Made by a program: the position numbers and the translations under genes
The notes under the pieces: generated by a model
Seen by the model: only the letters and a program-made list of their open reading frames with translations
Database searches by the model: none
Told to the model about the DNA's origin: nothing
Origin: Caryophanales bacterium
GTDB lineage: Bacteria; Bacillota_I; Bacilli_A; RF39; UBA660
Direction: 5' to 3'
Length of the DNA stretch: 64,000 bases
NCBI GenBank assembly: GCA_016290885.1
Contig: JAEEVN010000001.1
Location: forward strand, 62,001-126,000
Shown: positions 7,871-54,752 of the stretch, in pieces
Position numbering within the stretch: position 1 is the stretch's first letter
Layout of the letters: every line of letters starts with the position of its first letter

Positions 7871-7887
7871 ATTTATCACCTAATAAA

Positions 7888-7896
7888 ATTATAACA
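7888..7896 (-). promoter_or_regulatory. extended -10 promoter of cysS
   Basis: TGTTATAAT on the minus strand directly abuts the T tract of the preceding terminator and ends 17 bp from the cysS start codon. No convincing -35 is visible. Confidence 0.55.
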
Positions 7897-7897
7897 T

Positions 7898-7924
7898 AAA
7901 AAAAGACTATAAAATAGTCTTTTT
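7898..7924 (-). terminator. terminator of the first GLUG-repeat gene
   Basis: A 10-bp hairpin (arms 7901-7910 and 7914-7923, 3-nt loop) merges into a T tract on the minus strand and includes part of the stop codon. Confidence 0.85.
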
Positions 7925-10900
7925 AATTGTTAAATATTTTTAAAGTTGGAAGAGTATCTCCCTCTTTAATTTCAAATGCATCATCACCATTAATTATACT
8001 TAATATATCTGGTGTATCTTCATTTACATAAATACCTACTGCATCAGCAGCTTCATCTGTACATTGTGGCCTAATTCCATAGCATCCGATAGAATGTGCA
8101 GTTGGATCTGTATTCCACTTATTGCCAGTTCCTGCATTATAGCTTTCTGTTATTTGACCAATTCTTATCAAATGTGGAAGACCATCCTCACTAATTGGTG
8201 TATCTAATGCAGAATCATCTATTTCTATTTTACCTGCATTAAAGCTGTTACTTGCTCCATTATATGCAATACCATTCATTTGGATCAAATGATAAATTAT
8301 AAGTGGTTCAGTTACTACTAATTTTAGATTTCCTGTGTTAACACAGTTATTTGCAGATGCATATGTTGCAATTCCATCAACGTGTGGATTTGGTTCATAA
8401 CCATTAGGTTGAGATACTAAATTGTATGTTATATCTCCTAAATTGTAACCATTTGTTACAGTTCCACCTGATGGAGATATACCTGCAACATAACCAGAGT
8501 TCCCATATCTAAATTGATTTGTATAAGTTATGCTTCCTGCATTATATACATTTGTTACAGATCCCATATTATATCCAGTAATACCACCGATATCCACTGG
8601 AGAACTCTTTGCTGTAATATTTCCTGTATTATAACAGTTTCTTACTGTGTTACAGTAGTTAGCGCAAATACCACCTACCATACCACCAGAGTTATAATCT
8701 GTAACGTTATCAATACCATTAATTAAATTTCCTGTATTATATGAGTATGATACATTTGTTGCTGAATAACCAACTATCCCACCTGCCATTGGTCCAACAC
8801 CTGCTGTAATTGTTCCTGTATTATATGTTTTAGTTATATCCATATGTTCACCATAGCTGAAGATGCCTCCAACATATCCATATCCCTGTAAATCTCCTTC
8901 ATTATAGCAGTTTTCAATTGTACCCTGTGCTTTAGCAACTATACCAGCCATATATGAAATATTTCCTGCTAAATCACCTGTATTAAAGCAATTTGTTATT
9001 GTAGAATTATCTGAATAAATTTCTCCTACAATACCTCCAAAGTACGAATTTGAATCTCTACTAACTAAGTCTATTGTTGGAATATAGTCTCCTGAGTTAT
9101 AACTATTATCTATAGTTACATCGCCATTTGCCCATATTGAACCATATAGCATACCACATGATCCACACCATTCAAGAGATTCATTATCTCCTGTGTTATA
9201 TGAATCAGTTAAGCTTGCTGTTGTAACCACACCTTGTCCCATTATTCCGCCAACGTTTCCACCACGGTGTATTCCATCACCAGTTATTTTTCCTGTATTT
9301 ACATTGTTCTCTGCAACAAGTGCTCCTTTTGCATTAACATATCCAAATAATCCTCCTGCTATAGAAGGGGTTGAAGTATATGTTATATTTCCATTGTTAG
9401 TATTATTTCTAAATATTGTTGTTGGTTCATTAGAATTTAAGTTATAACCCATTCTATGAATAATACCTGAGCATGATCCTTCACAAGTTAAATTTATATT
9501 ATTTGTTGTATTTTCAATTATTACTATTCCTACATCATTACCTTCTTGGTTTGATACTACACCAGCACCATCCCATCCATGAGCAATTAATGTTCCGTAT
9601 GTAGTAATCTTGTCTAATGTAAGATTTCCATCAGCGAATCCTAAAAGTGCTCCTGTATTTCCACCAACATCTACATATACGTCTGATAAAATCATATTTT
9701 TAAATGTTGCGTTTGTTGCATGACCAAATAAACCTTTAAATCCGTATTCATTAGGTAAAACGCTATTTGTCATATATAACCCACTGATTTTATTATTATC
9801 CCCATCATATTGACCTGCAAATGTTCTTATAACGTTTTCACCTAGATTATCATCATAATATCTATGTCCTGCAGGTATCCATAAATTAGCACCACTTAAA
9901 TCTCCTGATGCTGCTTGACCATTTAAGTCATCATTTAACTTAATGCTCTTAATTTGCTTGATATATTGTCCTTCATAAGTTGTTCCTTCATTAATAGATT
10001 TTGCAAAACATGCTAATTGATTTGCAGTTTTGATTTTGTATGGATCAGATTCTGTTCCAGATCCACCATCAAATACATTGTCTGGTGTAAGAGCCCCTGT
10101 TACATCACAGTCTCCATCCCATGTTTCTATTAAATCTATTTCTTCATTTACTGTTACTATTAATTCTTTTGATTTAGTTATTGGATTAATAATTGCTCCT
10201 AATAAATTATCTAAACCAAATACTCCTGCAAGTACTGTGAAAGATAATGTTAAAGCTGTAACTCCAGTTATTATACCTGCAGTTACTTTTTGTTTTTTAG
10301 TTTTTAATTTCTTAAATAATACTGCATAAATACCTAATCCTGATACAAAGAATAATAATGTTATTAATATAATATTATCTAATGTCTTTGGATTACTTGG
10401 TGTAACTGGTACTACTTTCTTTTCACATATCTTTTTAGTTTCGTTATAGATTTCGTCATCTTTACATTCTACTGGTTTTTCTGGCTTTACGCATATGCCA
10501 GCTTCATTTCTTTCCATTCCTTCTGGACATAAACACATACTTTCATCATCTGATAGTATTTCTCCATCTGGACATGATCCTTCATCATAAGTATATTTAA
10601 TCTTTACTTCTGATGTAGTTCTACCATTTTGAGCTCCTGGTTTAACTTTAGCTTTAACAATAACTTTATTTGTATCATTACCATTAATAGCTAATCCTCC
10701 ATCTGGTAAGTTTGAAGTATATTCCATATTTTGATTAGCAGGTTCAAAAGTTATTTCTCTTAGAGTTCCTGCTCTATCACCACTATTTGTTATAGTGATT
10801 GAAAAATTAACTTCATCCCCTATATCTTGGAATAATGCATCAACTTCTTTATTTGAAACATCAATATTTGTTATTTCTCCTAATGTTCCATTTCCTTCAT

Positions 10901-10994
10901 CTTCAATATTTGTTACATCTACATTAAATGTTAATGCGCTAACATTTGTCATAAATGCAAACATTAATATAAATAGTAATATTTTCTTCTTCAT
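7923..10994 (-). CDS. GLUG-repeat surface protein 1
   Basis: A 1023-residue predicted surface protein. The order is: signal peptide (1-20, ending NVSA); beta-rich outer domain (21-140) typical of CARDB/DUF11-like folds (EVNFSITITNSGDRAGTLRE); a Cys-rich segment at 141-190 with six Cys; membrane segment 1 (about 204-227); a basic loop KKLKTKKQK; and membrane segment 2 (about 237-261). A long second outer domain starts with ETWDGDCDVTGALTPDNVF and GGSGTESDPY. About 500 residues of GLUG-like repeats follow, of the form CYNTGNI...GGIVGY. The end is LPTLKIFNN. There is no sortase signal, so the mid-protein hairpin appears to anchor both outer domains. Close paralogue of the next two genes; likely adhesin, ligand unknown. 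Confidence 0.85.
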   Translation of the reverse strand: MKKKILLFILMFAFMTNVSALTFNVDVTNIEDEGNGTLGEITNIDVSNKEVDALFQDIGDEVNFSITITNSGDRAGTLREITFEPANQNMEYTSNLPDGGLAINGNDTNKVIVKAKVKPGAQNGRTTSEVKIKYTYDEGSCPDGEILSDDESMCLCPEGMERNEAGICVKPEKPVECKDDEIYNETKKICEKKVVPVTPSNPKTLDNIILITLLFFVSGLGIYAVLFKKLKTKKQKVTAGIITGVTALTLSFTVLAGVFGLDNLLGAIINPITKSKELIVTVNEEIDLIETWDGDCDVTGALTPDNVFDGGSGTESDPYKIKTANQLACFAKSINEGTTYEGQYIKQIKSIKLNDDLNGQAASGDLSGANLWIPAGHRYYDDNLGENVIRTFAGQYDGDNNKISGLYMTNSVLPNEYGFKGLFGHATNATFKNMILSDVYVDVGGNTGALLGFADGNLTLDKITTYGTLIAHGWDGAGVVSNQEGNDVGIVIIENTTNNINLTCEGSCSGIIHRMGYNLNSNEPTTIFRNNTNNGNITYTSTPSIAGGLFGYVNAKGALVAENNVNTGKITGDGIHRGGNVGGIMGQGVVTTASLTDSYNTGDNESLEWCGSCGMLYGSIWANGDVTIDNSYNSGDYIPTIDLVSRDSNSYFGGIVGEIYSDNSTITNCFNTGDLAGNISYMAGIVAKAQGTIENCYNEGDLQGYGYVGGIFSYGEHMDITKTYNTGTITAGVGPMAGGIVGYSATNVSYSYNTGNLINGIDNVTDYNSGGMVGGICANYCNTVRNCYNTGNITAKSSPVDIGGITGYNMGSVTNVYNAGSITYTNQFRYGNSGYVAGISPSGGTVTNGYNLGDITYNLVSQPNGYEPNPHVDGIATYASANNCVNTGNLKLVVTEPLIIYHLIQMNGIAYNGASNSFNAGKIEIDDSALDTPISEDGLPHLIRIGQITESYNAGTGNKWNTDPTAHSIGCYGIRPQCTDEAADAVGIYVNEDTPDILSIINGDDAFEIKEGDTLPTLKIFNN

Positions 10995-11014
10995 ATGTTT
11001 CTCCTATTATTTTA

Positions 11015-11023
11015 ATTATAACA
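11015..11023 (-). promoter_or_regulatory. extended -10 promoter of GLUG gene 1
   Basis: TGTTATAAT on the minus strand, right behind the T tract of the preceding terminator and 20 bp upstream of the start codon. Confidence 0.55.
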
Positions 11024-11025
11024 TA

Positions 11026-11057
11026 TAAAAAGAAACTAATAAATAGTTTCTTTTTTT
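11026..11057 (-). terminator. terminator of GLUG gene 2
   Basis: A 12-bp stem (AAAAAGAAACTA read on the plus strand, with its complement) and a 5-nt loop sit next to a T tract. The same stem recurs behind GLUG gene 3. Confidence 0.88.
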
Positions 11058-11060
11058 ACT

Positions 11061-14000
11061 TTACTGATTAAATGCTTTTAATGTTGGAAGTCCATCTTCA
11101 TCTAATTCATCATTAAATGCTCCATCACCATTTATTATACTTAATATATCTGGTGCTTCTTCCGTTGTATATGTACCTGCTGCTTCATTTATTTCTAAAG
11201 TACAACTTGTCCAACCATCGACACCATAACATCCAAGCGCTTTTCCATTAGAATTTGTATTGAATTTATTATTTGAATTTCCATTTCTTCCATTACCAGT
11301 TATTTCACCAAGTATTATTTGATGCTTATTTCCATTAAATTCTTCATCATATATTGAATGACCTAATGCTGAATCATCAATCGAAACTTCTCCTGCATTA
11401 AATCCATTAACTGAACCCCCCATAGAAGAAATACCACCTAGATATAAATACTTATTTGTTGTATAAGGTTTATCTATTTTTATAGTAGCTTTTCCTGTAT
11501 TAACTGCATTAGTAACTGTACCATAAGTAGATATACCTGCAACTCTAGGATTATCTGCTCCTGTATTGTTTTGATGAATTGTTATGTCTCCTACATTATA
11601 TACATTAGATATTGAGAAACTTGATCCTCCATTAGCAATACCAAACATATCTGCATAATCTGTTCTAGCTCCACTTGGTTTTGGTTGATCTAAATATGTT
11701 ATGTTTCCGGAATTATAGACATTTTCAATAACTGTTCCTCTGAAATGACTTAAAGCTTGAATTCCTCCTATTTGTAAACCACTATAATATGAAGTTATAT
11801 TTCCTCTATTATAACTGTTTTTGATTTCATAACAGTCTTGAGGACATAAACCAGCTATTTGGTTACCTCCTTCAGCAGTATTTATAATTTCTCCTTCATT
11901 ATACGAATTATAAATTTTGGTTTCACCCCAACCAACAATTCCACCTGCTCTAGCTCTTTCAAAATTAGTAATTGTTCCTTTATTATATGATTTATTAACT
12001 GTACCTTTGAAGTATCCTACTAAGCCTCCAGTATAGGCAGCACCAACAATTTCACCTAAGTTGTAGCAATTTTCCATTAATATTGATTCTCCAGTTCGAT
12101 TACCGGCATATCCAACTAATCCTGCCCCATAAGCTAGTCTACCAGAAATTTTACCTGTATTATATGAATTCTTTATTGTAAATGAATTGTTAGTAGCAGC
12201 GTATCCAAATAATCCACCTACATATGATTGACTGCTACCATTTGGTATTACTCCTCCTTCAGGATAAGCATTTACATATAATAAATCTCCAGAATTATAT
12301 ACATTTTCGGCATATAAATCTGAGCATCCACTTAATGTTCCAATAATACCTCCAGATTGTGATATTTCATTCATTCCAGACCAATCACCACTATTGCTTG
12401 AATTAGTTATAGTAATTTTTCCTCCTGATGCTCCTACTATTCCACCTATTTGTGATCCATTTCTAGTAGAATCAAATGTAAAGTTACCCTTATTATGACA
12501 ATTATCTATTTTTAAATTAGGTGATGCAGATAAGTAACCTACTATTCCACCAGCTATCGATGGTGCAAAAGTAATATTACCGTTATTAACAACATTTTCA
12601 AATATCATATTTGGTTCTTCTGTTGTTTTTAATCCACCAACATAATGGATAATACCTGATACACTTGCATCAGAAATAATATCAATATTATTAGTTGTAT
12701 TAGTAACTTTAAATAAAGCATTATCATCATTGTTTCCTTCAAAACGGGCTACTATTCCAGAAGAATAACCTCCTAAATTAGCTGAACCAAATGTATTAAT
12801 ATTATCAAGAATTAATGTTGTTGAACCACATCCAAGTAATGATGCTGTATTATAAGTTGAATTTAAATAAACATCAGATAATACCATATTCTTAAATGTA
12901 GCATTAGTAGCATATCCAAACATACCTTTTTGATAATTTGGTGCACTATTATCTGTTATATATAATCCACTAATTATATGGTTATCTCCATCATATGTAC
13001 CAGCAAATGCTTTTATAATACTAGTACTAGTACTACTATCATAATCACGATATCCTGCAGATATCCATAAATTAGCATTACTTAAATCTCCAGATACTAC
13101 TTGATCATTAAGATTATCATTTAATTTAATATTCTTTATTTGTTTTATAAACTTACCTTCGTAAGTTTCACCTTCATTTACTGATTTAGCAAAACATGCA
13201 AGTTGATTCGCAGTCTTTATTTGATATGGATCACTTTCAGTACCTGATCCACCTTGGAAAATATTATCTGGTGTCAATGCTCCAGTTACATCACAGTCTC
13301 CATCCCATGTTTCTATTAAGTCTATTTCTTCATTTACTGTTACTACTAGTTCTTTGCTCTTAGTTATAGGATTAACTATTGCACTTAGTAAATTATCAAG
13401 ACCAAATACTCCTGCAAGTACTGTGAATGATAAACTAAGTGTTGCTACTCCAGTTATTACACCTGCAGTTACTTTTTGTTTTTTAGTTTTTAATTTCTTA
13501 AATAATACTGCATATATACCTAATCCACTTACAAAGAATAATAATGTTATTAATATTATATTATCTAATGTCTTCGGATTAGAAGGTGTTGGTTTTGGAG
13601 GAACTGGTACTACCTTCTTTTCACATATTTTCTTTTCAGAATTATATATTTCATCATCGTTACAAACTACTGGTGTTTCTGGTTTTACACAGATACCTTC
13701 TTCATTTCTTTCTAATCCTTCAGGGCATAAACACATACTTTCATCTTCTGATAGTATTTCTCCATCAGGGCAACTACCTTCATCATAAGTATATTTAATC
13801 TTTACTTCTGATGTAGTCTTACCATTTTGAGCTCCTGGTTTAACTTTAGCTTTAACAATAACTTTATTTGTATCATTTCCATTGATAGCAAGTCCTCCAT
13901 CTGGTAAATTAGATGAATATTCAATCTTATCGTTTTCTGATTCAAAATCTATACTTCTTAAAGTTCCTGCTCTATCGCCTGAATTAGTTACAGTTATAGA

Positions 14001-14195
14001 AAAGTTTACTTCATCTCCTATATCTTGGAATAATGCATCAACTTCCTTATTAGTAACATCAATATTTGTTATTTCTCCAATAGTTCCATTGTTTCCTTCA
14101 TTTTCAATATTTGTTACGTCTATATTAAATGTTAAGGCATTAACATTTGTTATAAACATAAACATCATTATTATTAATAATATTTTCTTCTTCAT
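11061..14195 (-). CDS. GLUG-repeat surface protein 2
   Basis: A 1044-residue paralogue of the gene downstream of it, with the same order: signal peptide (cleavage near NVNA, residue 20), beta-rich domain, Cys-rich module (CPDGEILSEDESMCLCPEG), Pro-rich spacer, two membrane segments flanking KKLKTKKQK, the ETWDGDCD start of the distal domain, and GLUG-like repeats such as NSYNTGKISG followed by AGLVGYAG. The first 330 codons are much closer to copy 1 than the repeat region is, with exact runs of 54 and 58 bases shared. The C-terminus LPTLKAFNQ is conserved. It has its own promoter and terminator, so it is probably transcribed alone. The likely role is host or cell-surface attachment; this is inferred from architecture only. 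Confidence 0.85.
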   Translation of the reverse strand: MKKKILLIIMMFMFITNVNALTFNIDVTNIENEGNNGTIGEITNIDVTNKEVDALFQDIGDEVNFSITVTNSGDRAGTLRSIDFESENDKIEYSSNLPDGGLAINGNDTNKVIVKAKVKPGAQNGKTTSEVKIKYTYDEGSCPDGEILSEDESMCLCPEGLERNEEGICVKPETPVVCNDDEIYNSEKKICEKKVVPVPPKPTPSNPKTLDNIILITLLFFVSGLGIYAVLFKKLKTKKQKVTAGVITGVATLSLSFTVLAGVFGLDNLLSAIVNPITKSKELVVTVNEEIDLIETWDGDCDVTGALTPDNIFQGGSGTESDPYQIKTANQLACFAKSVNEGETYEGKFIKQIKNIKLNDNLNDQVVSGDLSNANLWISAGYRDYDSSTSTSIIKAFAGTYDGDNHIISGLYITDNSAPNYQKGMFGYATNATFKNMVLSDVYLNSTYNTASLLGCGSTTLILDNINTFGSANLGGYSSGIVARFEGNNDDNALFKVTNTTNNIDIISDASVSGIIHYVGGLKTTEEPNMIFENVVNNGNITFAPSIAGGIVGYLSASPNLKIDNCHNKGNFTFDSTRNGSQIGGIVGASGGKITITNSSNSGDWSGMNEISQSGGIIGTLSGCSDLYAENVYNSGDLLYVNAYPEGGVIPNGSSQSYVGGLFGYAATNNSFTIKNSYNTGKISGRLAYGAGLVGYAGNRTGESILMENCYNLGEIVGAAYTGGLVGYFKGTVNKSYNKGTITNFERARAGGIVGWGETKIYNSYNEGEIINTAEGGNQIAGLCPQDCYEIKNSYNRGNITSYYSGLQIGGIQALSHFRGTVIENVYNSGNITYLDQPKPSGARTDYADMFGIANGGSSFSISNVYNVGDITIHQNNTGADNPRVAGISTYGTVTNAVNTGKATIKIDKPYTTNKYLYLGGISSMGGSVNGFNAGEVSIDDSALGHSIYDEEFNGNKHQIILGEITGNGRNGNSNNKFNTNSNGKALGCYGVDGWTSCTLEINEAAGTYTTEEAPDILSIINGDGAFNDELDEDGLPTLKAFNQ

Positions 14196-14218
14196 ATTAT
14201 TCTCTCCCTATTATTTAA

Positions 14219-14227
14219 ATTATAACA
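14219..14227 (-). promoter_or_regulatory. extended -10 promoter of GLUG gene 2
   Basis: TGTTATAAT on the minus strand, adjacent to the terminator of GLUG gene 3 and 23 bp upstream of the start codon. Confidence 0.55.
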
Positions 14228-14229
14228 TA

Positions 14230-14262
14230 TAAAAAGAAACTATTAAATAGTTTCTTTTTTTA
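14230..14262 (-). terminator. terminator of GLUG gene 3
   Basis: The 12-bp stem is identical to that of the terminator at 11026-11057, with a 5-nt loop of different sequence and a T tract. Confidence 0.88.
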
Positions 14263-14264
14263 CT

Positions 14265-17200
14265 TTACTGATTAAATACTTTTAATGTTGGTAATTCTTC
14301 ACCTTGTTTAATTTCAAATGCATTATTAACATTAATTATATCTAATACATTTGGAGCTTGTGAAGCATTTATCTTAGTTCCATAATTAGCATCTAATGCA
14401 CGATATGCAGTATTTGTTCTAGATAATCCCATTGCATACCCATCTTGTGTATAATATGCTCCTGGTGTTACACCAGTTGCATCATAATCAGTAGTAATTT
14501 GTCTTGAATATACATTACCATAATTTATATCATCAGAATAAGTATATCCGTCTGCAATGCTTATAGTTCCTATATTATACACATTTGTTTGAGATGGATG
14601 AGGTCCTAAACTAGCAAATGCTCCTCCAACATTAAGATTTGTAACTGTTGAAACGTATGGTATTGTAATATTTCCTGCATTAACTAAATTAGATGTAGTA
14701 CCATGACTTAAAGTATTAATTCCAGCTGCAGTTAATGAAGTTAATCTTGTGTTGTTTTCAGTTTCAAACGTAATATCGCCATAATTATAATAATTGTTAA
14801 AGAATGGTCCACTCATTCCTCCACCAGATAATCCAATTGATGTCGCATAATTATCTTTTACATAGATATCACCAGCATTATAGTTTCCACCATAGAAAGA
14901 CATTCCACCAGTAGTTCCACCTGCTGCTGATAGTGTATCAAATGCATTATCATGAACATTGATATTTCCTTTATTATAAGAATCTGTTATACCTCTACCG
15001 CCACCAGTTGCTAAATTAGCAACTTCCAAAGTTGTTCCACTATTACCATATACTTCTATACTTTTTTCAGAGTATGATCTAGTAGCACCAGCACCATCAC
15101 CAGTTAAATTACCTACTTCTAAGCCTGCTCTAAAATCATTATCATGTACTTTTATTTCACCAGTTATATATGTATTTTCCATATATCCGCCAAATGATGT
15201 TCCACCTGCTATGAATGACCTACTTGGTGCCCAATCGCTCATTTGTATTCCTAATGCTGAGTTTTTAACTTCTATAGTTCCAGAACTTGATGAATCATAT
15301 GCTGAAGAACCATTTAGTGCTACTCCACCAACTACGATTTGTTCTCCAGTGAAATTATCAATAATCATATCGCCTTCACTTACTACATTTCTATTAGTAG
15401 ATCCATCTGTACCTATCATCATAAAAGATCCATATTTTGCATTAATATTTGAAATATACATATTACCTGTATTCTCTGTATTAATTATTTTTGAACAACC
15501 ACTATTTTGTGTCATATTTACAGATAAGCTACCAGTAACATTTATGTTTTCAACATAGATATCTCCTGAGTTATATGAATTTTGATTTCTTGAAACAAAT
15601 TCTTTACCCATGATAGTTTGATAATTTGCTAAATAAGGTCTATTTGCTAAATCTGCATCATCCATCATAGGAGATCCACTCATGTTAAGTGCCGCAACAT
15701 AAATACTACTAACTGTAGTTGTATTATCATGTACATAAATTTTTCCAGTATTACCACAATTATAAGAATTTCCTCCACCATAGACAATTCCCGCAGTATT
15801 AGATGAATTAGTTTCTATATCTCCATAGTTATTACAATCTATTGCTGCTCCACTTGAACTAATTCCTATATATCCATTTGGGCTAGAAACCGTTCCATTG
15901 ATAGTTCTACCTATTATGTTTCCATAATTGTCTGAGCTCATTACAATTGTATTTGATCTACCAATTCCACTTACGTATGCTTCTCCTACTATTTCTCCAT
16001 GGTTTTCAGAATCTATTACATAACTGTTATATCCACATATACCTGCAACATCATGTACTGCTGTTATTGTTCCATAGTTTTTACCATTGATTATGATAAC
16101 GTTTGTATATGCTATACCCATTGCATTAGCTTCAGTAGAAGTAACATCTGCATAGTTCTCAGAATTAGTTATTCTAGTAGAATCTGCAATCGCTGTTAAT
16201 GGGGCAGCAGTTGATATAATACCTGCATTATTGTTTTCCCCAATTACTTTACCATATGTTTTAACATTATCTATAGTTGATCCAACAGGATCATCATCGT
16301 TTATAGAAGCAAAACCAACTAAGATTGCCATAAATTTTTTACCACTTACGTAGTTATCACTTAATGTTAAATTCTTAATTGTTGCGCCTTCAATTACACT
16401 AAATAATCCTACATATTCAGCAGTTGAATCATTAATATAAATACCACTAATTGTTTTATTATCTCCATCATATGATCCTTTGAATTCATTAACAACTACA
16501 TATATTCCATTTGCATTATCCCATATAACTGTTCCAATTGGTGTCCATGTATTTAAATTATTTGTTGTTCCCGCTTCAACGTTTTCTAATACTTTATCAT
16601 TTAATTTAATATTTTTAGTTTGCTTTATAAACTTACCTTCATAAGCATTTCCTTCGTTAACTGATTTTGCAAAACAACTTAATTGTTCTGCTGTTTTAAT
16701 TTGATATGGATCAGATTCAGTACCAGATCCACCTTGGAAGATTTTATCTGGAGTAAGTTCATTATCTGCTAAATCACATGTCCCATCCCATGTTTCTATT
16801 AAATCTATTTTTTCTTTTACTGTTACTACTAATTCTTTTGATTTAGTTATAGGATTAACTATTGCTGCGATTAATTTATCTAAACCAAATACTCCTGCTA
16901 GTACTGTGAATGATAAACTAAGTGTTAATACCCCAGTTATTACTCCTACAGTTATTCTTTTTTTCTTTGTTTTTAATCTTCTAAACATTACTGCATATAT
17001 ACCTAATCCTGATACAAAGAATAATAAAGTTATTAATATAATATTATCTAATGTTTTTGGATTAGAAGGATTTACTGGTACTACCTTCTTTTCACAGATT
17101 TTCTTTTCAGAATTATATATTTCATCATCTGCACATTTTATTTCTTTTTCTGGTTTTACACAAACACCAGTTTCATTTCTTTCCATTCCTTCAGGGCATA

Positions 17201-17666
17201 AACACATACTTTCATCTTCAGAAAGTATTTCTCCATCAGGGCATGATCCTTCATCATAAGAATATTTTATTTTTACTTCCGAAATATTTCTACCATTTTG
17301 TGCACCTTCTTTAACTTTTGCAGTTATAATCACTACATTAGTATCATTACCATTGATAGCAAGCCCTCCATCAGGCAAATCAGAAGTATATTCAATACTA
17401 CTATTTCCAGGTGATGCAATTATTTCTCTTAAAGTTCCTGCTCTATCACCTGTATTTGTTATAGTGATTGCGAAACTAACTTCATCTCCTATATCTTGAA
17501 AGAATGCTTCTATTTCTCTATTTTCTTGGTTAATATTTGTTATTTGACCAATTGTTCCATTGTTTCCTTTGTCTTCAATGTTTGTTATGTCTACATCAAA
17601 TGTTAGTGCACTTACATTTGTCATAAACATAAACATTAATAAAAATAATAATATTTTCTTCTTCAT
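14265..17666 (-). CDS. GLUG-like surface protein 3 (divergent repeats)
   Basis: An 1133-residue third member of the tandem family. The N-terminal half of the architecture is shared: signal peptide ending NVSA, beta-rich domain, Cys-rich module, two membrane segments separated by RRLKTKKKR, and ETWDGTCD. The distal domain is clearly different. Its repeats are mostly of the forms NYGNI, ENHGEI and NKGNINVHDN, with fewer GGIVGY segments, and look like another beta-helix-forming repeat class. The C-terminus (LPTLKVFNQ) is conserved. It has its own promoter and terminator. Because it is the most divergent copy, it is either the oldest duplicate or one under different selection. Confidence 0.83.
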   Translation of the reverse strand: MKKKILLFLLMFMFMTNVSALTFDVDITNIEDKGNNGTIGQITNINQENREIEAFFQDIGDEVSFAITITNTGDRAGTLREIIASPGNSSIEYTSDLPDGGLAINGNDTNVVIITAKVKEGAQNGRNISEVKIKYSYDEGSCPDGEILSEDESMCLCPEGMERNETGVCVKPEKEIKCADDEIYNSEKKICEKKVVPVNPSNPKTLDNIILITLLFFVSGLGIYAVMFRRLKTKKKRITVGVITGVLTLSLSFTVLAGVFGLDKLIAAIVNPITKSKELVVTVKEKIDLIETWDGTCDLADNELTPDKIFQGGSGTESDPYQIKTAEQLSCFAKSVNEGNAYEGKFIKQTKNIKLNDKVLENVEAGTTNNLNTWTPIGTVIWDNANGIYVVVNEFKGSYDGDNKTISGIYINDSTAEYVGLFSVIEGATIKNLTLSDNYVSGKKFMAILVGFASINDDDPVGSTIDNVKTYGKVIGENNNAGIISTAAPLTAIADSTRITNSENYADVTSTEANAMGIAYTNVIIINGKNYGTITAVHDVAGICGYNSYVIDSENHGEIVGEAYVSGIGRSNTIVMSSDNYGNIIGRTINGTVSSPNGYIGISSSGAAIDCNNYGDIETNSSNTAGIVYGGGNSYNCGNTGKIYVHDNTTTVSSIYVAALNMSGSPMMDDADLANRPYLANYQTIMGKEFVSRNQNSYNSGDIYVENINVTGSLSVNMTQNSGCSKIINTENTGNMYISNINAKYGSFMMIGTDGSTNRNVVSEGDMIIDNFTGEQIVVGGVALNGSSAYDSSSSGTIEVKNSALGIQMSDWAPSRSFIAGGTSFGGYMENTYITGEIKVHDNDFRAGLEVGNLTGDGAGATRSYSEKSIEVYGNSGTTLEVANLATGGGRGITDSYNKGNINVHDNAFDTLSAAGGTTGGMSFYGGNYNAGDIYVKDNYATSIGLSGGGMSGPFFNNYYNYGDITFETENNTRLTSLTAAGINTLSHGTTSNLVNAGNITIPYVSTVTNLNVGGAFASLGPHPSQTNVYNIGTISIADGYTYSDDINYGNVYSRQITTDYDATGVTPGAYYTQDGYAMGLSRTNTAYRALDANYGTKINASQAPNVLDIINVNNAFEIKQGEELPTLKVFNQ

Positions 17667-17690
17667 ATTATATGTCTCCTATTATAAATA

Positions 17691-17699
17691 ATTATAGCA
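17691..17699 (-). promoter_or_regulatory. extended -10 promoter of GLUG gene 3
   Basis: TGCTATAAT on the minus strand immediately follows the T tract of the ntdP terminator, 24 bp upstream of the start codon. Confidence 0.55.
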
Positions 17700-17700
17700 C

Positions 17701-17733
17701 AAAAAAAGAAACTAGTCACTAGTTTCTTTTTTT
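17701..17733 (-). terminator. terminator of ntdP
   Basis: A 14-bp stem with a 3-nt loop (TGA on the minus strand) and a T tract. The ntdP stop codon is inside the stem. Confidence 0.88.
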
Positions 17734-18245
17734 AATCTATCATATTCATCTTTATAACCCATTATTACATCTTTATTAAATGGAAATTCTCTATTATTAA
17801 ATCTTTTTATTAATTCTTTTAGTTTATAAGTAATAATATCTTGTAAATCTTTAGGATATTTCATTTTTTCTTTATGATAATCATATTCTTTTTTATCTAA
17901 TATTTTATATGTATTATCAGGATATACTCTTAAATCTAAATCATAATCAATAAATTTTATTATATTATCTTCAATTATTACTGGAGATGCAATATTGCAA
18001 TAATAGAAAATTCCTTTTTTCTTTATTTGAGCTACTATGTTATACCAGTTATTTTTAAAATAAACTAATATAGCAGTTTCTTTAGTATTCCAACTTTTAC
18101 CAAATAATTTTGTTACTCTTGTATTTTTATTTCCAAAGACATAATAATCATCAGTTTCCTCAAGCAATATAGCTTCATCCCATACTTTGTATAGTTTTCC
18201 ACTATGTTTATACCCATGGATATTAAATAACTCTCCTTTTTTCAT
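17712..18245 (-). CDS. ntdP: nucleoside tri-/diphosphate phosphatase, DUF402/YgaC family
   Basis: A 177-residue cytosolic enzyme of the family (PF04167) that hydrolyses nucleoside tri- and diphosphates with divalent metal. The family signature is complete: the N-terminal HGYKHSGKLYKVWDEAILLE, the W at NNWYNIVAQIKKKGIFYYCN, and the metal-site region KFIDYDLDLRVYPD. The YDLDLRVYPD stretch closely follows the Bacillus protein. A GAGG Shine-Dalgarno site precedes the ATG by 7 bases. It lies between a ctp-type protease and the GLUG genes, has its own terminator, and may be monocistronic. Confidence 0.93.
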   Translation of the reverse strand: MKKGELFNIHGYKHSGKLYKVWDEAILLEETDDYYVFGNKNTRVTKLFGKSWNTKETAILVYFKNNWYNIVAQIKKKGIFYYCNIASPVIIEDNIIKFIDYDLDLRVYPDNTYKILDKKEYDYHKEKMKYPKDLQDIITYKLKELIKRFNNREFPFNKDVIMGYKDEYDRLKKETSD

Positions 18246-18269
18246 AATATATCCTCATTCCTTCTATAT

Positions 18270-18275
18270 ATTATA
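18270..18275 (-). promoter_or_regulatory. candidate -10 of ntdP
   Basis: TATAAT on the minus strand, preceded by GTG, lies 24 bp upstream of the ATG. No good -35 is seen. Confidence 0.4.
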
Positions 18276-18281
18276 CACATT

Positions 18282-18318
18282 TTACAAAAGAAGAAAAGAA
18301 CTTTATTTCAAAAGTTCT
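18282..18318 (-). terminator. terminator of the ctp-type protease gene
   Basis: An 8-bp hairpin (AGAACTTT, 6-nt loop, AAAGTTCT) is followed by the T-rich TTTCTTCTTTT on the minus strand. Confidence 0.7.
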
Positions 18319-19460
18319 ATTGCTTTTTGTAATTGTGCATCATTTTCATCTATCGGATTATTAAAGTATTCTTCTCCTAAATCTACTTCATAATCAGGTT
18401 TTACTCCTACATCATTGATGCTATTACCTTTACTTGTTAACCATTCCTCAGTAGTGAATTTAAACATAGTTTTGTTAGATAATGGTCTCATTTCTTGAAC
18501 AGTACCTTTTCCATAAGTAGTTTTACCTACTAATATAGCACCATATTGTTCTTGTAAAGCAGAACACATTATTTCTGATGCAGATGCTGAATTTTCATCT
18601 ATTAATATTACTACTTTATAATTTAATTTATTATCATTTAAAGAATAAGCTTTTTCTATATTATTTCTATTTTTTATTTGATATATAGGAGTTTTTCTAT
18701 CAACAAATCTACTAATAATATTAGTAACTGTAGATAAGTATCCTCCTCCATTACCTCTTAAATCTATTATAAGAGAATTAATTCCTTCATTTTCTAATCC
18801 ATATAAAGCTTCAGTAAATTGATCATCTGTTAATGAACTAAATGTATTTATTTCAATATATCCTATATTATTATCTAATTTTTCTGAATATACTGAATCT
18901 ATTTCTACTACTGATTTTTCCACTTCAATAGTTTTTTCTTCTTCTCCTCTTTTTATTACTATAGTAGCCTTACTAGATTCAGAACTTCTAAGTATTGTAG
19001 ATACTTCAGTAGGTGTTTTACCCTTCATTGATTCACCATCTATGCTTACAAATTTATCTCCTATTTGTAACCCTGCTTTTTCTGCAGGAGATTTTCTAAA
19101 TACTCTACTTATAGTTACATACTCATCATCTGTTTGATATATTTGTGCTCCTATACCATAATATGATCCACTTAAGTCTGTTAAGAAATCATTTGTTTGT
19201 TCTTTATTAAAAAACATAGTATGTTTATCTTCAGTAGCAAGCATAATACCATTAATCATACCATCGATTAATTTAGAATCATCTATATCTTTATAATATT
19301 CATTTTTAATAGTTTCATATGCTTCAAATACAGGTTCAAACTTACTATCATAACCAGTTTTAATTATAGTTTTATTGTTTCCAAGTAATAAATATACAGT
19401 AGATGCTCCTATTAAAACTCCTAATAAACTGAATAATATATATCTTGCAATATTCTTCAT
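18303..19460 (-). CDS. carboxyl-terminal processing peptidase, S41 family
   Basis: A 385-residue membrane-anchored serine protease facing the outside. There is an N-terminal membrane segment (8-27), then the S41 N-terminal region. A PDZ domain spans about 100-175 (YGIGAQIYQ...VFRKSPAEKAGLQIGDKFVSIDG). The protease domain contains RGNGGGYLSTV, then SASASE at 291-296 with the Ser nucleophile, and Lys318 in GKGTVQ as general base. The family trims or degrades envelope proteins from their C-terminus. No peptidoglycan-binding C-terminal domain is present. Shine-Dalgarno site GAAGGTGA. It is bracketed by a terminator on each side, so probably monocistronic. Confidence 0.93.
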   Translation of the reverse strand: MKNIARYILFSLLGVLIGASTVYLLLGNNKTIIKTGYDSKFEPVFEAYETIKNEYYKDIDDSKLIDGMINGIMLATEDKHTMFFNKEQTNDFLTDLSGSYYGIGAQIYQTDDEYVTISRVFRKSPAEKAGLQIGDKFVSIDGESMKGKTPTEVSTILRSSESSKATIVIKRGEEEKTIEVEKSVVEIDSVYSEKLDNNIGYIEINTFSSLTDDQFTEALYGLENEGINSLIIDLRGNGGGYLSTVTNIISRFVDRKTPIYQIKNRNNIEKAYSLNDNKLNYKVVILIDENSASASEIMCSALQEQYGAILVGKTTYGKGTVQEMRPLSNKTMFKFTTEEWLTSKGNSINDVGVKPDYEVDLGEEYFNNPIDENDAQLQKAIELLK

Positions 19461-52669: not shown

Positions 52670-52697
52670 AAAAAAAAAGGAACTTTTTTGTTCCTTA
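52670..52697 (-). terminator. terminator of the ltaS-LCP operon
   Basis: Stem AAGGAAC / GTTCCTT with a 6-nt A loop and a 9-nt T tract on the minus strand, overlapping the LCP stop codon. Confidence 0.88.
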
Positions 52698-54752
52698 TTC
52701 TCCTCCTTCGCCTTCTCCAGAGTTTTCACCAGAGTTTTCTCCAGAGTTTTCTCCACCGGAATTTTCTCCTCCGCCAGATTCTCCTCCAGAATTTTCTCCA
52801 CCGGAATTTTCTCCTCCAGATTCGCCAGAGCCTCCACCTGAAGATTTAACGCAATTCCCATTACTATCTTCTTCATATCCATTCCATGTTGGACATACAC
52901 AAGTAACTTCATCATCACCTAATTCAAGTGGTTCTTCGCAAGTTGTCTTTTCCTTTTTCTTGCATACACCTTTTGAATCTTTTTCATATCCATTCTTACA
53001 TACGCAAGTTTGCCCATCTGCACCTAATTCTTCATTTTCACCAGTACATGTTTTCTTTTCTTCTGGTTTTGGATCTGGTTGTGGATAATTTTTAATACCA
53101 CCAAATTGATCTTTACCAATTATTTTAGGTTCATATGGTTGATCTATACTAAATGAGAATGAAGTTTCATATTCTTCTTCTTCTAAACCTAAGTTAATTC
53201 TCATAGCTTTAGTAATAGCATTTAAACTATTCATAGATGGTAAAAATTCATAAACTGGTGATCCTACTAAATAGTCATGTAGATGACCATCTGATCCATT
53301 TAAATATGTTCTTTGCATACTTATAACATCATTTGTATCAGTTAAAGAATCAGTTGATAATAAAACATCTTTAAATACATTATAGAATTCAAGAATTTGT
53401 TCTCTTGTTAAATCTGTTTCTAATGTTTTACCTACTGCATCTAATACTTGATAGAATTGATCTACAGTTCTTATATTCTTAGTGGCATTCATAATACCTT
53501 TAATAACTAATTGTTGATTTTGACCTCTTACAAAGTCATTTCTTTCACCTTGAGTATAATCAGGTCCACACCAATCATATGCTTTTCTGTTTCTAGCTAA
53601 AGCTAATGCTTGTACACCACTTAAATGTTGCCATCCAGCATCAACAAAGATTACTTCACTAAAACTTCTGTATTGGTTATTTTCACATATTCCATATGGG
53701 ACATCTACATCTATACCACCTAAAGCATCTACTAAGCTAATAACACCTTTAAAGTTCATCTTAGCATAGTAATCTATATGAATTCCTGTGAAATTTTCAA
53801 CAGTTTCTCTAACACATTCACTTCCATATGGATTAGCATGTGTTATTTTACTATATCTATTACCTGCACATGCAATTGGTACAAAAGTATCTCTTGGAAT
53901 GCTTAAAATAGTAGCATTTAATGTTTTAGGATTAAATGTTATTAATATGATTGTATCTCCAAGACCCCAATCATCTATTTCATCATCATTAGAATCAACA
54001 CCCATTACTAGAATTGTAAATGGTTCAGTAACACTTGTTCTTTTTCTTTTGCTACTCTTTGATTTCTTTGTTTCCATTTCTTCACTATGTGTGAATAATA
54101 CTTTTGTTTCATCTGCTATATGTTCAAAATCAGATCTTGTTTTATATCTTGAAATATAATTTCCAACTACAAAGCAAGCATCTATTTCACCTGAATATAA
54201 AGCATTTAACATTATAATATCTTCATCATAATCATAAATATTATCTAAATCTAAACCTTGTTCTTTTATGATTTTTTGCGCTAATACATAACCTTCTATA
54301 TCTTCTTCATTACTAATTATACCTATCTTCTTTTTCTTAACATTTTTCTTAGTTGTATCACCATCTTTTAATGCTATTAATTTAGAAGTATAAGTTGTAG
54401 TATTTTTATTTAATCCATCTAAGAACGACATAGTTCTTGATATAAAGGAACTTGCAAAATATTCACCAATTCCAAACACTAAAAGAACTAATATTAATAT
54501 AATAAATTTATATTTCTTTGGTTGTAATCTTAATGAAAAATTAAGTCTAACTACTAATATACAAATTATTACTAATATACCAATTCCAATATATCTAAGA
54601 ACATTTTCTATATTAGATAATTTTAATATATTCCATATAAAATAACCTGTTATACATAAGAACATACCTACAAATACACTAGATATAATTCCTATTATTT
54701 TATTGTTCTTTTTATTTATATTTTTTTCTTCAACAGTATACTTTTTTCTCAT
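52695..54752 (-). CDS. LytR-CpsA-Psr family ligase with solute-binding-like insert and Cys-rich, Gly/Ser/Glu tail
   Basis: A 685-residue envelope protein. Three membrane segments (about 20-42, 52-70, 80-100) precede a region resembling a solute-binding domain (KIGIISNEEDIEGYVLAQKI, SGEIDACFVVG). The catalytic LCP domain at about 245-420 has VMGVDSNDDEIDDWGLGDTI, SIPRDTFVPI, DALGGIDVDVP and ALARNRKAYDW...ERNDFVRGQNQQ. LCP enzymes attach teichoic acids or polysaccharides to peptidoglycan. The C-terminus has two Cys modules (CTGENEELGADGQTCVCKNG and CEEPLELGDDEVTCVCP), like those of the GLUG proteins, then about 45 residues of GENSG-type repeats. It is the last gene of the ltaS operon. Confidence 0.9.
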   Translation of the reverse strand: MRKKYTVEEKNINKKNNKIIGIISSVFVGMFLCITGYFIWNILKLSNIENVLRYIGIGILVIICILVVRLNFSLRLQPKKYKFIILILVLLVFGIGEYFASSFISRTMSFLDGLNKNTTTYTSKLIALKDGDTTKKNVKKKKIGIISNEEDIEGYVLAQKIIKEQGLDLDNIYDYDEDIIMLNALYSGEIDACFVVGNYISRYKTRSDFEHIADETKVLFTHSEEMETKKSKSSKRKRTSVTEPFTILVMGVDSNDDEIDDWGLGDTIILITFNPKTLNATILSIPRDTFVPIACAGNRYSKITHANPYGSECVRETVENFTGIHIDYYAKMNFKGVISLVDALGGIDVDVPYGICENNQYRSFSEVIFVDAGWQHLSGVQALALARNRKAYDWCGPDYTQGERNDFVRGQNQQLVIKGIMNATKNIRTVDQFYQVLDAVGKTLETDLTREQILEFYNVFKDVLLSTDSLTDTNDVISMQRTYLNGSDGHLHDYLVGSPVYEFLPSMNSLNAITKAMRINLGLEEEEYETSFSFSIDQPYEPKIIGKDQFGGIKNYPQPDPKPEEKKTCTGENEELGADGQTCVCKNGYEKDSKGVCKKKEKTTCEEPLELGDDEVTCVCPTWNGYEEDSNGNCVKSSGGGSGESGGENSGGENSGGESGGGENSGGENSGENSGENSGEGEGGE

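Follow-up and report, generated by a model that had tools for sequence, protein, structure and literature searches.

How is a surface protein held on the cell when two of its three hydrophobic segments form a tight hairpin in the middle of the chain, with a large domain on either side? The question is raised by three tandem genes in a 64,000-nucleotide stretch of DNA (the window, to which coordinates refer unless a locus is named) from an uncultured small-genome bacterium whose relatives are uncultured Firmicutes. An earlier note, made from the letters of the DNA, had described three tandem proteins with a signal peptide, a 120-residue beta domain, six Cys, two membrane segments around a Lys/Arg loop, and repeats. 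Open reading frames, hydropathy and AlphaFold models bear this description out. The same note proposed that the hairpin anchors the chain mid-protein, with no sortase motif; this part does not stand, as in each of the three proteins the sequence NPKTLDN stands before the first membrane segment and the hairpin reads as a class B sorting signal joined to a second export segment.

Three proteins of common design

The three open reading frames are intact and lie in tandem on the minus strand (Table 1). Each protein has exactly three strong hydrophobic segments, which by hydropathy are residues 5-21, 208-224 and 245-261 in copy 1, and no other membrane segment. A Lys/Arg-rich loop, KKLKTKKQK or a close variant, separates the second and third, and a repeat region of 760-870 residues follows the hairpin. 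Structure prediction for copy 1 gave the expected elements: a beta domain with strands at 50-138, helices at 205-226 (low pLDDT) and 244-259 (low confidence), and a beta-helix spanning 377-946, most of which, beyond about residue 420, has pLDDT values of 75-97. The proposed topology, with both domains outside and a tiny cytosolic loop, is supported, and a cytosolic location of the repeats was rejected because in relatives clear internal signal peptides stand before the heads. An artefact of assembly or a fusion by frameshift was ruled out, as the layout recurs in six intact copies and in over 30 distinct relatives, and a PHROG scan of eight neighbouring genes gave no support for a prophage origin of the surroundings. 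NCBIfam models returned only a chance NuoH match on the three proteins.

Table 1. Positions of the genes, protein parts and intergenic gaps, with the basis for each where one applies.
Feature	Position	Strand	Basis or remark
Copy 1 (P0001, 1023 aa)	7923..10994	-	ORF and AlphaFold model
Copy 2 (P0002, 1044 aa)	11061..14195	-	ORF
Copy 3 (P0003, 1133 aa)	14265..17666	-	ORF
Copy 1 N-terminal signal peptide, residues 1-20 (...TNVSA/LTF; slash, predicted cut)	10935..10994	-	Hydrophobic segment, AxA-type end
Copy 1 Ig-like beta domain, residues 21-138	10581..10934	-	AlphaFold strands 50-138
Copy 1 six-Cys module, residues 141-190	10425..10574	-	Cys positions
Copy 1 putative sortase motif NPKTLDN, residues 201-207	10374..10394	-	Pattern search, conservation
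Copy 2 putative sortase motif NPKTLDN, residues 206-212	13560..13580	-	Pattern search
Copy 3 putative sortase motif NPKTLDN, residues 202-208	17043..17063	-	Pattern search
Copy 1 first membrane segment (hydrophobic part of sorting signal), residues 208-226	10317..10373	-	Hydropathy 2.42
Copy 1 Lys/Arg cytosolic loop, residues 227-238	10281..10316	-	Sequence, positive-inside rule
Copy 1 second export segment, possible internal signal peptide, residues 239-260 (TVLA/GVFG)	10215..10280	-	
Copy 2 hairpin (segment 1, Lys/Arg loop, segment 2), residues 213-265	13401..13559	-	Hydropathy
Copy 3 hairpin (segment 1, Lys/Arg loop, segment 2), residues 209-261	16884..17042	-	Hydropathy
Copy 1 head, GLUG beta-helix, residues 261-1023	7926..10214	-	GLUG E 0.0034 (below cut-off), model
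Gap upstream of copy 1 (AT-rich stem and T-run, followed by TGTTATAAT and an RBS)	10995..11060	-	
Gap upstream of copy 2, layout as copy 1 gap	14196..14264	-	
Gap upstream of copy 3, layout as copy 1 gap	17667..17711	-	
Two further family copies outside the window, same contig	L024 7117-10206 and 10292-13216	-	
Further family copy outside the window, same contig	L025 14214-17408	-	

The N-terminal domain of copy 1 gave a weak DUF11 match at residues 49-115 (Pfam, E 0.0033, below cut-off) and weak Foldseek matches to Ig-like and MSP folds. In an alignment of 21 diverse relatives, 20-61% identical to the first row, three residues of the beta domain and the Ala that closes the N-terminal signal peptide are at least 90% conserved. 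The Cys residues of copy 1 are at 141, 154, 156, 168, 177 and 190. The AlphaFold model of copy 3 is better in the N-domain and poor in the head. The same N-domain occurs in related genomes as stand-alone exported proteins of about 165 aa (L126, L130, L131, L133), which are weakly similar to DUF7507/CARDB and camelysin (M73). Elsewhere in the window (52695-54752, minus strand), an LCP-like protein, which we take to be of the LytR-CpsA-Psr type, ends in two Cys modules resembling the six-Cys module, reading C...DGQTCVC..GYE.DSKGVC, and then in a Ser/Gly/Glu-rich tail.

The proposal that each copy has its own promoter and terminator holds by eye: in the gap upstream of each of the three, a GAAACTA...TAGTTTC stem and a T-run are followed by an extended -10 (TGnTATAAT) and then an RBS. 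A generic promoter/terminator scan, which is uninformative in such AT-rich DNA, missed the AT-rich stems, and by its count promoter-like sites were not in excess. Between copy 1 and cysS, the gap (7880-7922) has the same layout, a terminator-like stem fused directly to an extended -10 promoter, so the layout is not specific to the surface-protein family and seems to be general in this genome.

A probable class B sorting signal placed mid-chain

A cell-wall sorting signal normally stands at the very end of a protein. In all six close copies found in this genome, a pattern search located NPKTLDN or NPKTMDN with some 770-930 residues on its C-terminal side, so that the signal is not at the extreme C-terminus. 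The Pro-rich linker before the motif varies by insertions and deletions among the copies (PVTPSNPKT, PVPPKPTPSNPKT, PVDPDKPTPKPIPSNPKT) and the motif is constant, which is the pattern expected of a sortase sorting signal. Together with segment 1, the motif forms the most conserved region among the six copies (94%). Only two positions, the P and T of NPxT, do not vary at all across the 21 relatives, and the motif's N and D are conserved to at least 90%. In class B substrates the [N/S]PxT motif has G or N as its next residue; here the residue after NPKT (P1') is Leu or Met, not Gly, in 6/6 copies, and the Asp at P2' is invariant in all six. The proteins also have two further features of a class B substrate, an N-terminal signal peptide and a hydrophobic segment with Lys/Arg after the motif.

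The ordinary C-terminal signals of relatives have the consensus NPxT[G/S/Y/L..]DNI and tails of 31-37 residues. The exact sequence NPKTLDN closes an ordinary surface protein in one relative (L080), 33 residues from its end; Leu at P1' is thus compatible with a terminal sorting signal. Curated LPXTG models match the internal site in relatives weakly, below their cut-offs, and annotation pipelines seeking sorting signals only at protein C-termini would miss internal ones. Judged by sequence, NPKTLDN with segment 1 and the Lys/Arg stretch is probably a class B sortase sorting signal in mid-chain. It shares with the substrates of class B sortases (B. anthracis IsdC, NPKTG; C. difficile SrtB, [S/P]PXTG) the NPKT core, the P2' Asp, the hydrophobic segment and the Lys/Arg tail, but differs from them in its position, in Leu or Met at P1', and in the second export segment and whole domain that come after it. 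B. anthracis SrtB recognises NPKTG, and its activity needs Asp at P2' (PMC11987632).

Of the five sortase genes in the genome, that on contig C14 (G000:C14) is class B; its nearest PDB sequences are SrtB, with B. anthracis SrtB at E 5e-36. A class B sortase match was found in 16/17 genomes that have the architecture, and none was found in the other (G251, about 91% complete). At a stricter cut-off, class B sortase is present in 109 of the 141 genomes of the family, so widespread that co-occurrence alone is weak evidence. In two genomes the class B sortase gene adjoins an internal-signal gene, divergently in G317 and on the same strand, 33 bp away, in G038. The latter sortase (L069 702-2063), which lies downstream of the internal-signal gene, has a long Lys/Thr/Ser-rich N-terminal extension.

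Pattern searches, on which the inventory of signals in the genome rests, for NPxTxD followed by a membrane segment and Lys/Arg gave eight internal sites and one C-terminal site; a second C-terminal signal, SPKTYDG, is in a neighbouring gene on contig C28. Predicted internal class B signals are therefore more numerous than terminal ones in this genome.

A proposed precursor with two exported parts, and the fate of the hairpin

Segment 2 has features of its own. The Ala at its exit is at least 90% conserved in the 21-relative alignment, and in copy 1 this residue, Ala256, lies 52 residues after the sortase Thr204; in most relatives the distance is 42-53 residues. In many of them segment 2 has the classic form of a signal peptide (KKKKALNMMLIGLITLPIIAKA/A, KNKIIVILGFMLIPLCVYA/N). 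A signal-peptidase-like site was scored in 24/33 distinct cases, as against 18/106 control hairpins, which have a Lys/Arg loop and come from polytopic proteins (Fisher P 6e-9, with relatedness ignored). The automatic rule is crude: it missed sites that are good by eye in L021, L078 and L118, at least one match (L034) is not credible by eye, and a spurious one (L047) was removed by hand. The window subfamily has TVLA/GVFG at this exit, and the Ala is missing from one G038 copy and from two close relatives on L034 (VLTF, VLIT), which makes signal-peptidase cleavage doubtful in this subfamily. In distant members, segment 2 evidently reads as an internal signal peptide.

We consider it probable that the product of each gene is a single precursor whose two parts are both exported, a sortase-anchored N-domain and a separately exported head. 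The first part, from the signal peptide to the Lys/Arg stretch, has the full anatomy of a class B sortase substrate; the second, comprising the Lys/Arg stretch, segment 2 and the head, begins with its own predicted export signal. The N-terminus would exit through Sec and be trimmed by signal peptidase, segment 1 would halt transfer with the Lys/Arg loop remaining inside, and segment 2 would resume export, now of the head; sequence and topology rules lead to these steps. Class B sortase would then cut NPKT/L and join the N-domain to the wall, as the identity and conservation of the motif and the presence of a class B sortase indicate. The head would remain at the cell surface with segment 2 as its tether; where relatives have a clear AxA site, signal peptidase might instead cut the head off, which would then be released or held non-covalently. 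A sorting signal followed by a second export segment leads one to expect a chain cut at least once mid-way, and not one two-headed molecule. More tentatively, the lineage may use a two-product surface precursor as a standard class B sortase route, in which the Ig-like domain is wall-linked, the head is separately matured, sortase and signal peptidase act on the same hairpin, and heads of many kinds are served.

An alternative that goes further has both enzymes cut the precursor, so that the head becomes a separate soluble protein, which is either released or bound again by the wall-linked N-domain, and nothing but the hairpin stays in the membrane. This is possible, and the clean signal-peptidase sites that end segment 2 in many relatives (IIAKA/A, VYA/N, SALA/N) argue for it, as do the near-constant spacing from the Thr and the maturation of the pneumococcal IgA1 protease 56 residues past its LPXTG (PMC9637739); however, the window subfamily has a weaker site, and the few close relatives named above have none.

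It is rather unlikely that the hairpin is a permanent membrane anchor holding both domains on one uncut molecule, with NPKT vestigial or unused. Segment 2 is long in the window subfamily (helix 242-270 in a second model, at low confidence), its Ala is not fully conserved and P1' is not Gly, all of which would suit such an anchor. Moreover, two G114 paralogs (L071 5242-9828 and 9923-13765) keep the N-domain, the hairpin and the internal signal-peptide end but not the NPxT motif, which they have lost. Drift would be expected of a vestigial motif, whereas this one is the most conserved element in diverse relatives; it also matches the C-terminal sorting signals of related genomes, and a class B sortase is present. 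That sortase joins the N-domains into a pilus-like polymer, and not to the wall, is very improbable: the copies are in tandem and some class B sortases are reported to polymerise pili (PMC3019223), but no sortase gene lies among or adjoins the three genes, and the nearest on the same contig, about 9 kb left of the window, is not class B.

The preferred reading, a precursor with two exported parts, bears on a wider problem. Where the sorting signal is N-terminal, as in IgA1 protease and ZmpB-D, retention of the protein at the surface is puzzling because sortase should sever the head from the wall-linked piece. With more than 30 distinct relatives that differ in their heads and in whether they have a clean internal signal-peptidase site, and with the two motif-less paralogs as natural controls, the question becomes testable by comparison.

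Gram-positive IgA1 proteases have an N-terminal LPXTG followed by membrane segments, and maturation takes place 56 residues downstream (PMC9637739, PMC2225412, PMC7939560). The IgA1 metalloprotease/Zmp proteins (M26; Streptococcus, Gemella) share with the window proteins the near-N-terminal sorting signal, the membrane segments and the large exported region, and their maturation distance of about 56 residues is close to the Thr-to-Ala spacing of 52 in copy 1. The window head is also nearest to the IgA1P beta-helix, both by sequence profile (7uvl_P, E 6e-9) and by structural alignment, in which the six best matches are IgA1P-type (Z about 18-20; next family 17) and the best has Z 20.1 and rmsd 3.4 over 268 aligned residues. 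Foldseek returned no PDB match at E 0.001 or better. In contrast to the IgA1 proteases, the window proteins use an NPxT class B motif and not a class A LPXTG, and add an Ig-like domain and a Cys module before the sorting signal. A Pfam scan at E up to 1 found no G5 domain in them, and the three proteins gave no M26 match (Pfam) and have no HExxH. Given the shared layout and head, and the lack of G5, M26 and HExxH, the window proteins would work like the IgA1P anchor, and not as IgA1 proteases. A mid-chain sorting signal with a second export segment and a long beta-helix behind it has otherwise been reported mainly for streptococcal IgA1 proteases, and a literature search for internal sorting signals in sortase polyproteins found nothing relevant. 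What is new with respect to the N-terminal LPXTG arrangement is, on our best reading, another sortase class and lineage, the absence of a protease, and many exchangeable heads.

Exchangeable heads, copies and relatives

The idea of a display module with interchangeable heads is supported: among the six copies, residues 1-352 average 67-94% identity region by region, and the heads about 36%. As anticipated, the N-domain and hairpin are fused to other C-terminal domains in related genomes, where the heads include GLUG, InlB/Flg_new, DUF285/PARCEL, DUF6273 and tyrosine-phosphatase types. In the window, the GLUG head of copy 2 starts at residue 266 (Pfam, E 1.6e-8) and the divergent head of copy 3 at residue 262. 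Copy 3 had been assigned a different repeat class; a Pfam scan indeed gave no match for it, GLUG included, but its head starts and ends in alignment with those of the other copies and its AlphaFold model is of low confidence, so the assignment stands in part. The heads are probably adhesin-like beta-helices. The same head types occur in the GLUG, InlB-repeat and BspA/PARCEL surface proteins of Firmicutes. Such proteins usually leave the cell by means of an N-terminal signal peptide and are held by a C-terminal anchor or as lipoproteins, whereas the window head hangs behind an N-terminal sortase substrate.

The count of three copies, correct for the window, is incomplete for the genome. Protein searches found six close copies, all on contig C45, three of them outside the window, one of which starts about 0.6 kb to its left; two distant relatives in the genome, with other heads, also carry the internal signal. 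The N-terminal profile matches 40/145 genomes of the family. The NPxTxDN signals of relatives fall into two classes, terminal (31-37 residues to the end) and internal, the latter with a second hydrophobic segment and then roughly 200-2300 residues. In class- and phylum-level searches, matches spanning both segments were confined to this family, and those outside it were partial and mostly C-terminal sorting signals; a weaker or differently built relative may exist there. One locus with the layout (L035) bears the submitter's label Clostridium sp.

Adjoining the two copies on L024 is a large pilin-like repeat protein (13802-18649) that ends in NIQTGK, a membrane segment and KKKK, and is a possible sortase substrate. 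Two similar clusters (L029 1337-4658 and L030 6199-9547) pair a sortase with a large surface protein ending in VPITDATDYKE, a membrane segment and KKK; they sit beside SSB and conjugation-like genes and are probably two related integrative elements.
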